Source of the DNA: a virus
IMG/VR virus record: IMGVR_UViG_3300034118_000400
Location: 1 to 43,102 of that record
Length of the DNA stretch: 43,102 nucleotides
Strand: one strand, 5' to 3'
Shown here: piece by piece, positions 10,900 to 42,753 of the stretch
Position numbering within the stretch: the stretch's first letter is position 1
Layout of the letters: each line of letters starts with the position of its first letter
Translations under genes and position numbers: made by a program
Notes under the pieces: model-generated
The model's database searches: none
What the model saw: the letters and a program-made list of their open reading frames with translations, nothing else
Told to the model about the DNA's origin: nothing

Positions 10900-10997
10900 G
10901 GAAAATGTGTTAAATTTAACATTTTGAGCCACTTGTAGATTTTGCCTTTCATAATCAATAACTTACGAATATATTACACAAATATGTAACTATATAC

Positions 10998-11027
10998 TTG
11001 TATAATCATATAACTGCTGTATATTTG
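10998..11027 (+). promoter_or_regulatory. Promoter of the plus-strand cassette
   Basis: TTG (10998-11000), 19-nt spacer and TATATTTG (11020-11027), a close match to the Bacteroidota consensus. Transcription would start near 11034 in the sequence AGTCAAACAAACAAA, giving a leader of about 23 nt before the ATG at 11057. Confidence 0.75.
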
Positions 11028-11045
11028 CAGAGTCAAACAAACAAA
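11024..11045 (+). repeat. Leader repeat, copy 1
   Basis: A 22-nt element, TTTGCAGAGTCAAACAAACA plus AA, occurs exactly before both plus-strand genes (11024-11045 and 11338-11359) and on the minus strand before the 51-aa early gene (40143-40164 region). Its A-rich, unstructured character suggests a translation-enhancing leader shared by early genes. Confidence 0.75.
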
Positions 11046-11056
11046 AACATAAGGAC

Positions 11057-11302
11057 ATGAACTACAATCTTAAAGTAACAGAAACAAACAACAAGGCAGC
11101 TAAATACTTTTACGAAATCCAAGATGAAGCTGGAAACACGTTAGTAGACAGAAAAAGCAACCGCGAATATGTTGCCGCAACGATAGACGGAAGATTCTTT
11201 TTTGGTAGAATTGATCTGATAGGTAAAGGGGATCATGGTAGACAGATTAAATGGCAACAGAAAGAAAGCCGAGAAATAACACCCATAGCTTACAAAAAAT
11301 AA
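11057..11302 (+). CDS. Hypothetical plus-strand early protein, 81 aa
   Basis: One of only two plus-strand genes. A small alpha-beta protein containing NREYVAATIDGRFFFGRIDL and a basic C-terminus; not recognised. Its start is 30 nt downstream of TATATTTG and preceded by AAGGAC, exactly as in the inverted copy in front of the 51-aa minus-strand early gene. This implies early expression and perhaps host takeover, a moron-like insertion next to the capsid gene. Confidence 0.75.
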   Translation: MNYNLKVTETNNKAAKYFYEIQDEAGNTLVDRKSNREYVAATIDGRFFFGRIDLIGKGDHGRQIKWQQKESREITPIAYKK

Positions 11303-11337
11303 CCACAACGGGGCGCAGCATCCTACACTGCATTTAT

Positions 11338-11359
11338 TTTGCAGAGTCAAACAAACAAA
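11338..11359 (+). repeat. Leader repeat, copy 2
   Basis: Second exact copy of the 22-nt leader element, 11 nt before the ATG of the second plus-strand gene. Only a weak promoter-like TATTTTG is fused to it and no -33 TTG is visible, so it may act mainly as a translation leader after read-through. Confidence 0.7.
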
Positions 11360-11370
11360 GAAACAAAGAA

Positions 11371-11547
11371 ATGAAACAATACTTCAAAAACGGATACGCC
11401 TATTTTTACGATACAAATATTCGCCTATGGACGTTGTACCCTGTGGATGCTAACAAAAACCGAATTGAATGGGATGGCAATGATAATCCGATTGAAGCCG
11501 AATATTTCACCAATAAAAAAGAACTTGAAAAACGTATAGCACAATAA
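11371..11547 (+). CDS. Hypothetical plus-strand protein, 58 aa
   Basis: The start is set at the ATG following the leader repeat and an A-rich stretch; an upstream in-frame extension to 11251 would run through the repeat and the 3' end of the previous gene and is unlikely. The product is small, rich in Tyr, Asn and Trp, and not recognised. It is probably cotranscribed with the 81-aa gene. Confidence 0.7.
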   Translation: MKQYFKNGYAYFYDTNIRLWTLYPVDANKNRIEWDGNDNPIEAEYFTNKKELEKRIAQ

Positions 11548-32534: not shown

Positions 32535-33290
32535 TTAATTCCGCATATCCAAATCCCCCTCAAAAATAATGATATTGAACATTTCCCGCATCCTACTTGC
32601 CACCCTTTCCCCGTACATTTCCTTAATCATATCAGCCGTGAGATTGGTGGTTATATGGGTTTTATTCTGCAATACAGCCCTGCGATCATAACGGTTCAGC
32701 AGTATTTCCTCCATCACGTTCAGTTCATTGCCGTAGTTCTTTTTGCGGGTTTCAGTACCTAAGTCATCAAAACACAGTCCGAATGTTTCATGCCTGAACG
32801 GGTTATCTGATGACGGGTAGGATTCCATGCAATAGCCTCCGATGACATCACCACCCTGCTCTGCATACTCATTAGCCACTCTGCGACACGGCACAATGAT
32901 ATAGGATGAAACAGGGTTTCTACCAAACAACTGCATCAGCGTGGTTTTACCTACACCAACTGAACCCGCCAATAATAATCCTTTCTTCAAACTCCTTCCA
33001 TCCTGCTCAAATTCAGGTGATTGACTGAAATACTGTGAAAGCAGATCGGTTATTTGCTCATTTTCAGGGGTATTTATCCACTGCTTTTTATACAGTGATT
33101 CCCAACGGTTAATAGCCCATTTTTTAAAGTTTTCAGCGTTGAAGTTCGGGATGGATAGGGGACGGCTTACCTTCCTCATGTACTCCTGTTCACGTAGCTT
33201 TCTCCGCTTTTCGTTGGTGGCTTTCTCTAACAGTTCCCGCTTTTCAGCCTCGGTCAGTTCAACCGAATCAAAGTTTTCCGAATTTTCCAT
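32535..33290 (-). CDS. DnaC/IstB-like helicase loader ATPase
   Basis: 251 residues. Charged helical N-terminus, then an AAA+ core: Walker A GSVGVGKTT (109-117), Walker B LCFDDLGTE near 170, sensor region ITTNLTADMI and an arginine-rich RVASRMREMF. It would load the host replicative helicase on phage DNA together with the upstream initiator-like protein, whose gene it overlaps by 23 bp. Confidence 0.85.
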   Translation of the reverse strand: MENSENFDSVELTEAEKRELLEKATNEKRRKLREQEYMRKVSRPLSIPNFNAENFKKWAINRWESLYKKQWINTPENEQITDLLSQYFSQSPEFEQDGRSLKKGLLLAGSVGVGKTTLMQLFGRNPVSSYIIVPCRRVANEYAEQGGDVIGGYCMESYPSSDNPFRHETFGLCFDDLGTETRKKNYGNELNVMEEILLNRYDRRAVLQNKTHITTNLTADMIKEMYGERVASRMREMFNIIIFEGDLDMRN

Positions 33291-33963
33291 TTTTCATTAC
33301 AGGTTTTGAGGTGGGGGTTAATTGTGTATTATTTTTTAACGGGAAGATTCCTTGATATCCCCAAGATATTGTTTGTTGCAACATCTTTCGCGCAACATCT
33401 AAATTTTCGCCCGAATTTTCTTTTAGTGATTGCTTGGTAGCTGAGCGGCTGATTTCCTTGAGCGGTTTTTTCATTTGTTTTCGATAAGCATAAAACTCAT
33501 CAATAATTTCATCCCATTCATCCTTCTTTATTTCTTCTATTTCTTTACCTTCTTCTATTTCTTTTAATAGTGGTTGATCGCTGGTTTGTTGCTGGTTGGT
33601 TGTTGGTTGATCTTTGGTTTTTTTTGGAATAGTTTGCTGGTTATCTTGCTGGTAGTTTTTAAAGTTTATAATTGATATACAACTACCTGCGTTTGTTTTT
33701 TCGATGGTTATTTGCTGGTTAATTTCAAATAATTCTAGCCATTTTCTGATAATTTGCTCACTGATACCAGTCTCATAACTTAGCTTTTTTCTACCCGTAA
33801 TTAATTGACCCTCTTTTAGTTCAACTATTTTTCCATTAAATAATGTTTTTTTAGGGAAATAAGTTGCGTTAATTAGAAGATGCACCCACAAATGCACTGC
33901 ATAACTATCAGTCCAAAATCCTGATTCAGTAACCCTTCTATGTAGTTTAATCCAGCCTTCCAT
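33268..33963 (-). CDS. Replication initiator-like protein, 231 aa
   Basis: [20 protein letters not shown] and a winged-helix region (about 45-85: [20 protein letters not shown]) match phage replication proteins of the DnaD/O-like kind that bind the origin. A low-complexity Gln/Thr/Asn linker (about 110-135) follows, then a helical C-terminus likely contacting the helicase loader. The gene is clearly AT-richer than the structural genes. It overlaps the HNH gene by 17 bp. Confidence 0.75.
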
Positions 33964-34321
33964 ATCTGTTATTTTTTCTTGTATTACATGGAAGACATAA
34001 TGGCTGAAGATTATTTATTGAATCATCACCGCCTTTACTTACAGGAATTATGTGGTCAATGCTTAAATTATTTGTGCTACCGCAATAAACACAAGGTTTT
34101 TCTAAAAGCAATAATCTATCGCTTTTTGATGCGCATAATCCTTTTAACTTACTTATCCTTAATAATATTCTTCTTTTTAAGGATGAATAATAAAACTTAT
34201 CGACTTGCAACAAATCTCCATTTTTTAGTTTGGAGGGTAGCGACTTCTTTAAAAAGTCGATTTCTATTAAAGTATTTTGCAATTCATCTAATTCCATTTT
34301 AGATACGCTGTACTTTTTCAT
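33947..34321 (-). CDS. HNH endonuclease, 124 aa
   Basis: A helical N-terminal half, then a HNH domain: CVYC (Cys77, Cys80), Asp89-His90 in [12 protein letters not shown], Asn103/104 and CLPC (Cys109, Cys112). It may be a free-standing homing nuclease or a packaging/replication nuclease. The gene is AT-rich and is preceded by a 100-nt structured leader, so it may be regulated separately from the early operon. It overlaps the initiator-like gene by 17 bp. Confidence 0.85.
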
Positions 34322-34330
34322 AAAATAGAA

Positions 34331-34411
34331 AACCCATGTAGGGTTCAGAGTAGCCGCTCCTCCCCCAACATGGGCAATAATGTCGTTATTAATAGCAGTC
34401 GGCTACCTGCT
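34331..34411 (-). ncRNA. Candidate structured leader RNA 1 (kissing-loop fold) before HNH gene
   Basis: Minus strand, in order: hairpin AGCAG/CTGCT (34411-34407 with 34398-34394) with loop GTAGCCGA; hairpin AATAA/TTATT (34390-34376); stem CCCATGT/ACATGGG (34374-34368 with 34339-34333). The first loop sequence GTAGCCG is perfectly complementary to CGGCTAC (34356-34350) inside the third stem's loop, a 7-bp kissing or pseudoknot helix. The last arm is 11 nt before the ATG, followed by CTATTTT. A TATATTTG box (34429-34422) precedes it. Confidence 0.6.
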
Positions 34412-34421
34412 TTTAACACTA

Positions 34422-34429
34422 CAAATATA
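34422..34429 (-). promoter_or_regulatory. TATATTTG box before leader RNA 1
   Basis: A perfect Bacteroidota -7 element just past the stop of the upstream gene. No TTG is present 18-20 nt upstream, so it is either an activator-dependent promoter or a weak one. The same box without a -33 partner precedes leader RNA 2. Confidence 0.5.
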
Positions 34430-39926: not shown

Positions 39927-39975
39927 ATCTTTCTTTTAATGGGCGCACCGTTTAGATGCGCCCTGTGATTGGTTG

Positions 39976-40131
39976 TTATTTTCCTGAAATCAACTGGTTG
40001 AATCTGATTCCAAAGTGTTGGCGCATTGTGTCGGTTACTTTGCGTCCACGTTGCGTGTTTGAATCTACTGATGCTTTGATAAATTCAGCACGTACGTTGA
40101 TAATTGCGTTGAGTTGGTCGATTGTTCTCAT
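39976..40131 (-). CDS. First early protein, 51 aa
   Basis: A short basic helical protein: MRTIDQLNAIINVRAEFIKA, then NTQRGRKVTDTMRQHFGIRF. It is the first gene after the early minus-strand promoter and has the same leader and AAGGAC-ATG context as the plus-strand gene at 11057. Not recognised; size and charge suggest a nucleic-acid-binding or host-targeting protein. Confidence 0.65.
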   Translation of the reverse strand: MRTIDQLNAIINVRAEFIKASVDSNTQRGRKVTDTMRQHFGIRFNQLISGK

Positions 40132-40242
40132 GTCCTTGTGTTTTTGTTTGTTTGACTCTGCAAATATACAGTAGTTATATGATTATACAAGTATATAGTT
40201 GCATATTTGTGTAATATATTTGTAACTGATTGATAATGAAAG
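40129..40242 (-). repeat. Promoter-containing inverted repeat, copy 2
   Basis: Inverted partner of 10946-11059 (about seven differences in 114). Contains the early promoter, the 22-nt leader element and the ATG of the 51-aa gene. The near identity of leader and promoter with opposite orientation implies a recent duplication, or selection for coordinated early expression. Confidence 0.85.
40161..40190 (-). promoter_or_regulatory. Early minus-strand promoter
   Basis: TTG (40190-40188), 19-nt spacer and TATATTTG (40168-40161): the best Bacteroidota-type promoter in the minus strand. It should drive the early operon of small coupled genes from 40131 downward. Confidence 0.75.
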
Positions 40243-40265
40243 TGGAAATTTTCAGTTAGGGCAAA

Positions 40266-40290
40266 GAAAAACCCCTCACATGGAGGGGTT
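40266..40290 (-). terminator. Terminator after PAPS-reductase-like gene
   Basis: The minus strand reads AACCCCT, 7-nt loop, AGGGGTT, TTTCTTT, directly after the stop at 40296. It isolates the ParB/PAPS-reductase unit from the early operon. Confidence 0.85.
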
Positions 40291-40295
40291 GGGGG

Positions 40296-41504
40296 TTACA
40301 TTTCAGAAGCTATTCGCCTTTTTTCCTTAATCGCTTTATACTTTTCGTATGCCTCTGACTTTGGCTGTGTTTGACCTAGCCCCTTGCAATAGTAGTCATT
40401 GCGCAAAATACACCTTGCCATTCGTTTCCACGAAGGAGCCCAACATTTCACCTCTAAGTCATGCGGTGCTTTGTCGGGAATTGTTTCATACCCTCGTTTC
40501 TTCCATCCTACTATGAACTTTTTAAACCTTTCTTTGTAGTGGTGTTGCATTTTAGTAGGCAATGTTTTCAGAAGATAGTTTGTATAGGATTGCCATGTGT
40601 GACCGCTTGGTAATTTCACATCGTTATACCCCGTGTAATTGCCTGTTTCCTGAATATACAATGCACCACTATTGACACCTGAAACACGATTGATTAATCT
40701 ATACCATGTATCAGGTTCAAGGATATGATACAGCCATAAACCTTTCCGCTGATCGTCACCGTATGGTTGACAAAGGCGTTGATTACTCAATTTCACCCCT
40801 GCCATCGTCATTAGATCGTAGACTTTATTATGTGGCAAATGTTTCTGTTTGGAATGAAACACCCAAATATCTTCCGTTCTCCAGTCGTAAATCGGATACA
40901 CGTTGTAGAGGGTTTGTGATAGTCGTGTAGTCCATTTCCATCCGTTATATGTCAGGTTTTTCTTTGTTGCTACTATTGCTCTGTAACGGTGCAGTGATTC
41001 ATCAGCACGAATGCCAATAAATCCAGCAGTAAGTTTGTCTTGTGAATACCATTTACCAAACAGCACCATCAATTCCTCAAATTCCATTTTAGGAACGTAA
41101 AAATCATACTGCGATAGATCGGATTGCTCATGTGGTTTTTCTCTTACCCAAATATCTTTGTTCTCTTCATCCCAACAAACCCATTTAGGCTGAAAATCAG
41201 ATACGGCATTGCGCAATAATAGTTCACCACAAAACCAGTGCAGATCAATGTAGTCTTTATACATTTCGATCATGTTTCTGATGTGGTCTATTGTTGCAGT
41301 ATATTGCGCCTCCAAATCAATAATTAGCACCCCTACTTTCACATTTCTTTTTATCGCCTCTTCCATTACTAGGTGCATCATTACAGTTGAATCCTTGCCA
41401 CCTGAAAAGCTAATATAGAAACGTTCAAATGTGTCGAAGATATTGTGTATTCTTTCTTTCGATGCTTCCAAGACTGACGCATCAATGTAGTGTTTTGTTG
41501 CCAT
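40296..41504 (-). CDS. PAPS-reductase-like (DUF3440/IbrA-type) protein
   Basis: 402 residues. The PP-loop SFSGGKDST (32-40) binds ATP or PAPS; VGVLIIDLEAQYTATIDHIR and TAGFIGIRADESLHRYRAI follow as in IbrA/DUF3440 proteins, then YPIYDWRTEDIWVF. The C-terminal domain is basic and aromatic. The family is the adenylate-activating PP-loop type; the actual reaction is unknown. In bacteria IbrA is paired with a ParB-like IbrB, and here the ParB-like gene is directly upstream (1 bp), repeating that pairing in a phage. Confidence 0.85.
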   Translation of the reverse strand: MATKHYIDASVLEASKERIHNIFDTFERFYISFSGGKDSTVMMHLVMEEAIKRNVKVGVLIIDLEAQYTATIDHIRNMIEMYKDYIDLHWFCGELLLRNAVSDFQPKWVCWDEENKDIWVREKPHEQSDLSQYDFYVPKMEFEELMVLFGKWYSQDKLTAGFIGIRADESLHRYRAIVATKKNLTYNGWKWTTRLSQTLYNVYPIYDWRTEDIWVFHSKQKHLPHNKVYDLMTMAGVKLSNQRLCQPYGDDQRKGLWLYHILEPDTWYRLINRVSGVNSGALYIQETGNYTGYNDVKLPSGHTWQSYTNYLLKTLPTKMQHHYKERFKKFIVGWKKRGYETIPDKAPHDLEVKCWAPSWKRMARCILRNDYYCKGLGQTQPKSEAYEKYKAIKEKRRIASEM

Positions 41505-41505
41505 A

Positions 41506-42648
41506 TTAATACAGTTCTGTTTGCCGTCCGATTGATAATGCCTCTTCGTATTCCACTAATGCCCGTTCGTTATTCTGCATCCAAATATTAAGGTACTCGT
41601 GTGCTATTTTATTCGCATTTATTTGCTCTTCCTCTGTGAGTAAATTAAATCCTGAACAGAATACAGCAGGAACGCCCGTTGCATAACACATAGAAGCCTG
41701 ACCGAGCCACGCAATTCTATTCATGGAGCGGTTAGTTAAATAGTGTTCACATGAATGTTTCCACTGTGTAATTACTCCTGTTAACGCTTCACGAAATTTG
41801 TTTTCATCACGTAAAAAATCAGCATACGCAACTTCGCACTGCTCCTTTGTCATTCCTTCTTTTTTAGAAGCATAAAACCCCGCCTTGTGACACTCCCATT
41901 TTTCATACGTATGGAAAATTCTGCTTTCGTCTGCTTCGTTTGGTATCCGATACACATTCATTTCATCTTCTACTTCATCGGTTAATATTTCATACTCTCC
42001 TTCAATAGTGTCGGATGATTCCCATGCTCTGCTAAAATCAGCATCAGTAAACAAATGTTCAAGCCCTGATATTTGACATAGCCTCAACACCTCTTCTTCA
42101 TCCATTCCTAACTGTTTGCTGATTCTTTGGTTAGTCCAATTCCTGTTCTTTAATTCGATAACAATTTCGGACATTGCATTTACCTGATGCTTCCCCCTTG
42201 CTCTGTTGTGTCGGATGGTGGAGGCAATACGATCATTTGCTCCGCTTTGCTCTTTACGTATATCAACTATTGGAAGAAACCCGTGTACACGCTGTCGGAC
42301 TATCTTTGATTCCTTCCCTACCCTATTCCTGTGGAATCCGTCAATAACCTCTGTTTTCCCCTTCTCGTGGTTATCCCATGTTACTATCGGTTGTGTATAT
42401 CCGTCATTAATAATTGACAGTTCCAACAACTCCATTTCAGGCGGTGCTACTTTATTTGGGTTGTAATCATTCGCCACTACATCATCACTTTTAACCCATC
42501 TAACAAAATCGACTGGATTATCTTTGAACGGGCTTAATTTGTGAATTGTTTGTCTGATTTGATTAATTGCTTCAACCTGACTATCTAAGTCAAGCGTTGG
42601 CAATAAGTCAGAAATTAGTGATTCAATGTGCTTTATTTGCTCTTGCAT
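41506..42648 (-). CDS. ParB/Srx-fold protein (IbrB-like)
   Basis: The start is set at ATG 42648 (380 aa) because a start at 42669 lies inside the leader hairpin. The ParB N-terminal fold is visible at about 51-110 (WVKSDDVVANDYNPNKV, LSIINDGYTQPIV, VIDGFHRNRVG), followed by a HTH-like stretch (TNQRISKQLGMDEEEVLRLC). The rest is an acidic helical extension. ParB/Srx proteins use nucleotides, and IbrB-type ones partner with PP-loop IbrA-type enzymes. Target and product are unknown. Confidence 0.8.
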   Translation of the reverse strand: MQEQIKHIESLISDLLPTLDLDSQVEAINQIRQTIHKLSPFKDNPVDFVRWVKSDDVVANDYNPNKVAPPEMELLELSIINDGYTQPIVTWDNHEKGKTEVIDGFHRNRVGKESKIVRQRVHGFLPIVDIRKEQSGANDRIASTIRHNRARGKHQVNAMSEIVIELKNRNWTNQRISKQLGMDEEEVLRLCQISGLEHLFTDADFSRAWESSDTIEGEYEILTDEVEDEMNVYRIPNEADESRIFHTYEKWECHKAGFYASKKEGMTKEQCEVAYADFLRDENKFREALTGVITQWKHSCEHYLTNRSMNRIAWLGQASMCYATGVPAVFCSGFNLLTEEEQINANKIAHEYLNIWMQNNERALVEYEEALSIGRQTELY

Positions 42649-42657
42649 AAAATAACG

Positions 42658-42740
42658 AAGCCCCAACATCGTAGGAGTGATGAAGGGGCTTTAATGGTTA
42701 GCCGTTTAGCCAACGTAATCGCTCCTACCCGCTTACGTTG
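42658..42740 (-). ncRNA. Candidate structured leader RNA 2 (kissing-loop fold) before ParB gene
   Basis: Minus strand: stem CAACGTAA/TTACGTTG (42740-42733 with 42718-42711), with loop containing GTAGGAG (42728-42722); a possible weaker middle hairpin; stem AAGCCCC/GGGGCTT (42691-42685 with 42664-42658) with an inner CATC/GATG stem, whose loop has CTCCTAC (42677-42671). The two loop sequences are perfectly complementary over 7 nt. The last arm ends 9 nt before ATG, with TATTTT. Same layout as leader RNA 1 but different bases in each helix. Confidence 0.65.
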
Positions 42741-42745
42741 CAGGG

Positions 42746-42753
42746 CAAATATA
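42746..42753 (-). promoter_or_regulatory. TATATTTG box before leader RNA 2
   Basis: Perfect -7 element 6 nt upstream of leader RNA 2. The expected TTG at -33 is absent; instead a perfect inverted repeat CCGACAT-CA-ATGTCGG (42771-42786) occupies that zone, suggesting regulated transcription. Confidence 0.55.

Follow-up and report, generated by a model that had tools for sequence, protein, structure and literature searches.

A predicted kissing-hairpin leader RNA, usually at the head of replication operons, in phages of Bacteroidota

The window analysed here is the whole of a 43,102-nt stretch of the IMG/VR virus record IMGVR_UViG_3300034118_000400. On its minus strand we read two leaders, leader A (34322-34418) and leader B (42649-42741), which share a common plan: a TATATTTG box, which is a Bacteroidota promoter -7 box of the TAnnTTTG type, is followed by hairpin 1, a linker, hairpin 3, a U-rich run and the ATG of a gene (Table 1). 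Leader A stands before an HNH endonuclease gene and two helicase loader genes, and leader B heads a second operon in the window, which starts with a ParB/IbrB-like gene. Behind the window's other TATATTTG promoters the leaders are short and unstructured, which makes the kissing leader a property of particular operons.

Table 1. Positions in the window of the two leaders' elements and of the genes behind them
Feature	Position	Strand	Basis and remarks
Leader A promoter -7 box TATATTTG	34422..34429	-	direct reading; box and leader 100% identical in sister contig L025
Leader A hairpin 1 (5'-terminal)	34387..34418	-	folding; loop GUAGCCG at 34406-34400
Leader A hairpin 3 (terminator-like)	34332..34375	-	folding; loop CGGCUAC at 34356-34350
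Leader A U-rich run	34322..34332	-	adjoins hairpin 3, reaches the ATG at 34321
HNH endonuclease gene	33947..34321	-	Pfam HNH 1.1e-15; between leader A and the replication genes
DnaD-like helicase loader gene	33268..33963	-	phrog_2514 2.8e-33; first replication gene behind leader A
DnaC-like helicase loader gene	32535..33290	-	phrog_50 3.8e-22
Leader B promoter -7 box TATATTTG	42746..42753	-	direct reading
Leader B hairpin 1	42711..42740	-	folding; loop GUAGGAG at 42728-42722
Leader B hairpin 3	42658..42691	-	folding; loop CUCCUAC at 42677-42671
Leader B U-rich run	42649..42657	-	between hairpin 3 and the ATG at 42648
ParB/IbrB-like gene	41506..42648	-	phrog_2159 4.7e-66; behind leader B
PAPS reductase/DUF3440 (IbrA-like) gene	40296..41504	-	partner of the ParB gene

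Loop 1 and loop 3 can form seven Watson-Crick pairs in leader A (GUAGCCG/CGGCUAC) and again in leader B (GUAGGAG/CUCCUAC); the stem sequences of the two leaders are unlike. An earlier note on this DNA had pointed out the complementarity in A and the same architecture, with other helix sequences and preserved pairing, in front of the ParB gene. Both are real and lie on the minus strand; the extent that the note gave for the second element, 42658-42740, is right to within ~10 nt. Its description of three stems does not hold, as only two are conserved: the minimum-free-energy fold of A does not contain the middle one, and most relatives lack it. Folded with the kissing helix left out, A and B reach z-scores of -4.30 and -2.92, respectively, against dinucleotide shuffles. 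A kissing 6/7-mer with short flanking stems occurs 25 times in the window, compared with ~12.7 times per strand in shuffled sequence. Such an architecture is common by chance and was dropped as evidence by itself; the case for A and B, weak when they are taken alone, therefore rests on homologues.

Homologues were sought with a pattern comprising only the promoter, GCCC and TATTTTATG, with no demand for complementarity, and at least 119 stretches were found in viral contigs. Among the matches listed, 27 of 34 non-redundant ones had a complement of at least 6 nt between their two halves (17.7% when halves were swapped), and 24 of 34 had one of at least 7 nt (8.4% when swapped); the few non-redundant matches without a complement look like chance matches to the pattern. 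Twenty-two compact leaders were aligned with MAFFT, with no use of structure. In this alignment each of the seven kissing pairs and of the five stem-1 pairs varies on both sides, as do five of the seven inner pairs of hairpin 3, while the outer GCCC/GGGC is invariant. Paired cells amounted to 91.9%, compared with 34-47% for slid partners, and the covariation score was 0.592, compared with 0.05-0.14. G-U pairs, present in 12 of the 22 rows, are consistent with the transcribed strand. Three of 105 nt distinguish leader L134 from L186, and two of them constitute a compensatory kissing pair, so that nature provides a near-double mutant of the kissing helix (GUCGUUU/AAACGAC versus GUCGUAU/AUACGAC). 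Hairpin 3 of leader A is homologous to the covarying helix 4 of the A4 alignment.

A covariance-model search, as the earlier note had envisaged, recovers divergent leaders on which the model was not trained. Model R2, built from the 22 compact leaders and not including the kissing helix, finds G005 (7.6e-6), G009 (7.7e-5) and G007 (2.7e-4), and in the window it finds leader A (34319-34429) at E=0.0023; model R1, from a loose MAFFT alignment, held only seven pairs and was set aside. With no Rfam family, many homologues and covarying helices, the suggestion of a cis-acting structured RNA class is borne out, and we are very nearly certain that the kissing-hairpin leader is a real one. The note had named a lack of further homologues with covarying helices as grounds for refutation, and such homologues were found. 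Its members are ~95-110 nt long, with a loop 1 of ~7-8 nt, an A/U-rich linker and usually seven kissing pairs (range 6-9); hairpin 1 begins ~5-10 nt past the promoter box, near the predicted 5' end of the RNA. Invariant columns are confined to the promoter box, the GCCC/GGGC stem base, the U-run, the ATG and isolated single columns. This lack of a conserved unpaired core makes a metabolite riboswitch or other ligand-binding RNA, or a self-cleaving ribozyme, among the functions considered earlier, unlikely.

The compact leaders fall into two subtypes of hairpin 3, typified by L101 and L147: one has a CCCCC/GGGGG frame with UUGAUA on both sides, the other a GUUGGUA/UACCAGC frame. The kissing sequence GTTGCAG is found with both. 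A divergent leader in IMGVR_UViG_2595699002_000001 (L070:4423-4562), whose identifier suggests that it comes from an isolate genome, has a 9-bp loop complementarity, CATCTCACA/TGTGAGATG, and is followed by a gene of 134 aa with no function assigned.

Using the covariance model and a kissing scan, we found the leader in 6 of 18 Bacteroidota phage isolates: Flavobacterium phage FCV-1, with two copies, Flavobacterium phages FCL-2 and 11b, Croceibacter phage P2559S, Polaribacter phage P12002L and Cellulophaga phage phi10:1. In FCL-2, 11b, P12002L and phi10:1 it takes up the space from one annotated gene to the next, and in P2559S the annotated start of gp48 falls within it; the phi10:1 leader, which has a non-canonical promoter box, was found by the R2 model (4.4e-6). 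Among the same 18 isolates it was not found in crAss001, phi38:1, B124-14, B40-8, 6H, 1/32, Porphyromonas phage005a, phiST, P12024S, P2559Y or Fpv3, nor, by the covariance model only, in phi14:2. Accepted leaders had scan scores of -24 to -41, and the best scores in reversed sequence were -14.1 (637 kb) and -25.3 (297 kb); given this small false-positive rate, each accepted case also rests on position and the U-run. Two further signals were treated as false: a weak minus-strand match of R2 in FCV-1 and a scanner match in phage 1/32 lying antisense inside genes.

Because of the variability of stems and loops, BLAST searches of INPHARED with the leaders gave no matches, whereas the covariance model and the kissing scan worked. 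In 84,980 genomes the pattern gave nine matches, all without the fold, and an origin as a host gene or in a prophage was rejected on this ground; the covariance model found none in 400 Bacteroidota genomes, a weak negative from an insensitive search. Judged by these sequence searches, the class is phage-specific and widespread in viruses of Bacteroidota. Phages that are among the most abundant and least understood would thus have a regulatory RNA in common, placed in front of their replication genes, and its members in cultured phages make direct testing possible.

The gene following the leader belongs, in 79 of 117 cases among the matches listed, to one replication-type protein family with a Lin1244/Lin1753-like N-terminus. 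It is of HNH type in 13 (by motif; a representative had no Pfam match) and GIY-YIG-like in 5 (by motif only, with no Pfam match), others being DUF6291, CHC2-primase or VapE/PriCT proteins. When the leader is followed directly by an HNH-type or methyltransferase-like gene, inspection shows genes for an initiator-like protein and DnaB behind it. The leader thus usually opens a replication operon (DnaD/initiator-like, primase, DnaB) rather than belonging, as had been proposed, to the HNH gene. The order behind leader A (HNH, DnaD-like, DnaC-like), taken together with the neighbours across the class, indicates that other genes have been inserted between leader and initiator. A ParB-specific function was likewise rejected: the leader was directly upstream of the ParB gene in none of 20 ParB relatives, and the gene is replaced in a sister phage. 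The ParB/IbrB and PAPS-reductase-like/DUF3440 (IbrA) genes (40296-42648) occur as a pair in ~20 other viral contigs, and a kissing leader lies near the pair in several (L007/L009, L010/L022, L013, L017).

The sister phage contig, IMGVR_UViG_3300044641_002097, has both leaders and shares 97% identity with the window in parts of the structural genes. There, the stretch of ~120 nt that holds leader A and its promoter is unchanged and the upstream gene is 94% identical, but the identity ends at the start codon, which opens the HNH gene in the window and an unrelated 67-aa gene in the sister; the same leader without HNH behind it severs the supposed tie to that gene and disposes of an HNH-specific function. 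At leader B the two phages are ~96% identical over the leader's last 105 nt and 97.6% over the surrounding 245-nt block, up to the ATG, where ParB/IbrB in the window is matched by a DEAD/SNF2-type helicase gene in the sister. L158 and L192 share 105 of 105 leader nt in front of an HNH and a DnaD-like gene, respectively, and L150/L156 and L113/L145 are further such cases. Genes (HNH, GIY-YIG, methyltransferase or ParB) are thus often exchanged exactly at the ATG with the leader unchanged, and the leader marks sites where these phages exchange genes.

Hairpin 3, with its invariant GCCC/GGGC stem base, is followed by U-rich sequence. In the 10 nt behind it the T fraction is 0.76, compared with 0.32 for the genome; leaders that had not been selected for T have 5-9 T in these ten positions. 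The distance from hairpin 3 to the ATG ranges from 8 to 44 nt across members (8-14 nt in most), and this variability indicates that it is the U-run, not the spacing to the ribosome, that is kept. We tentatively propose, giving it a little under an even chance, that the leader is a promoter-proximal intrinsic terminator, or attenuator, that doses the operon, the kissing helix serving to couple its hairpin to the one at the 5' end. To judge by their shape, hairpin 3 and the U-run would form an intrinsic terminator between promoter and operon, and some transcripts would end as a ~95-nt RNA. Loop 3 would be transcribed before the 3' arm of hairpin 3 and could be captured co-transcriptionally by the already formed hairpin 1; the kissing helix might in this way tune the efficiency or speed of terminator formation, and with it how much replication protein is made or when; a protein of phage or host recognising the kissing complex may take part. 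A unit self-contained up to the ATG would allow different genes to be exchanged behind it.

Several observations count against an attenuator: the U-run is weak in leader B (6/10) and in leader 1 of FCV-1 (5/10), the compact leaders show no mutually exclusive antiterminator helix, and in a generic terminator scan such sites are no more frequent than in shuffled sequence. It is possible, if short of probable, that a helix of ~7 pairs, formed within one RNA by the loops of the 5' hairpin and the terminator hairpin, acts during transcription to switch the timing or dose of the replication operon; each element's kissing sequence would be its own and free to evolve, so that one genome could run several copies in parallel. 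If true, such an attenuator, built by linking an intramolecular kissing helix to a terminator and without ligand or antisense RNA, would be of an uncommon design and could offer a tool for controllable expression in Bacteroidota.

The short distance between hairpin 3 and the ATG in most members would also allow a block to ribosomes, and replication genes, which usually come first behind the leader, are often controlled at the level of translation. A kissing-locked hairpin 3 by the start codon might thus block or position the ribosome until a replication protein or unfolding of the RNA lifts the block, in a manner like that of the IncI repZ pseudoknot. We consider this unlikely, as the U-run after the stem is kept even where the ATG is 44 nt away (phi10:1), and as the genes behind the leader are swapped, so that no sequence of the start region can belong to the switch. 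A leader peptide was rejected as well: leader A has a short ORF starting from an ATG within hairpin 3, and this ORF is not conserved, since the second-subtype compact leaders have no such ATG.

Rather less probable is a role as an mRNA stabiliser, in which the 5'-terminal hairpin and the kissing fold shield the early mRNA from 5'-end-dependent decay. The position of hairpin 1 so near the predicted 5' end fits such a role, which leaves unexplained the invariant GC stem base, the U-run and the restriction of the leader to only some phage promoters. Improbable, too, is antitermination in cis, by analogy with HK022 put RNA, which consists of two cis-acting hairpins right after phage early promoters: acting on RNA polymerase, the leader would promote readthrough of downstream terminators. 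Its location immediately behind the promoter of a long operon, its phage specificity and its independence of the following gene would suit this, whereas the freely varying kissing sequence and stems give a polymerase little to recognise, and the element itself ends like a terminator. The leaders differ from put in that their loops pair and a U-run ends the element, and we know of no sequence shared between the two.

The repeated, exact exchange of genes behind identical leaders could also mean that the leader is mainly a recombination junction, a composite promoter-hairpin cassette boundary resembling T4 PeSL, with an RNA structure that has no further regulatory role; we hold this to be highly improbable, because a pure homology junction has no need of compensatory changes in a 7-bp kissing helix. 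That two hairpins have coincidentally complementary loops, as the chance frequency of the loose architecture in the window and one strong scanner match (-25.3) in the reversed sequence of five phages might suggest, is practically out of the question in view of the homologues, the syntenic position and the covariation, of which the covariation alignment already refutes it.

Rfam 15 has no family at gathering score in the window and no match in eight member loci, five cultured phages included; permissive scans of A and B gave only sub-threshold chance matches (E 0.15 or worse). In the literature covered, we found no description of the leader class. The class therefore appears to be undescribed. 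Among RNAs with comparable contacts, the ColE1 RNA I/RNA II kissing complex has fully complementary loops of ~7 nt like those of the leaders and is intermolecular, whereas the leaders, as far as can be read from them, are intramolecular. The pseudoknot of IncI-type repZ leaders, a translational activator working with an antisense RNA, resembles them in architecture, by placing a long-range tertiary pairing before a replication gene.

In the attenuators of plasmids pT181 (repC) and pIP501 (repR), a terminator-like hairpin likewise lies in the leader of a replication gene, and loop-loop contact with a separate antisense RNA has been proposed as the switch (PMC5703833). A hairpin and U-run precede replication genes in the phages too, by sequence, while the contact lies within one RNA; no TAnnTTTG-type box is present on the opposite strand near A or B. 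The PeSLs of T4 are composite promoter-terminator motifs (Arbiol et al. 2010; Comeau et al. 2014, via PMC4503421). They share with the leaders a promoter joined to a hairpin at gene-exchange boundaries of related phages, a feature found here as well. The leaders differ in having a Bacteroidota TAnnTTTG promoter instead of a T4 early promoter, in occurring in unrelated phages, in their two hairpins with an intramolecular kissing helix, and in lying at the replication operon, as a rule once or twice in a phage. Nor was a T4-like genome indicated: megablast of window positions 20000-43102, which include both leaders, against 50,697 phage records found no match. A palindromic motif of Bacteroidetes phages, a structured RNA near replication-type domains and without a terminator (Fremin and Bhatt 2021, PMC8040213), is set apart by that description. 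The leader most resembles the plasmid replication attenuators in function and T4 PeSL in its role at cassette borders, but does not match the definition of either completely.

A promoter region with TATATTTGCAGAGTCAAACAA occurs twice in the window, near 11020 on the plus strand and 40168 on the minus strand (10946-11380 and 39956-40300). In the sister phage, the 10946-11336 block is situated at the other location and in the opposite orientation.
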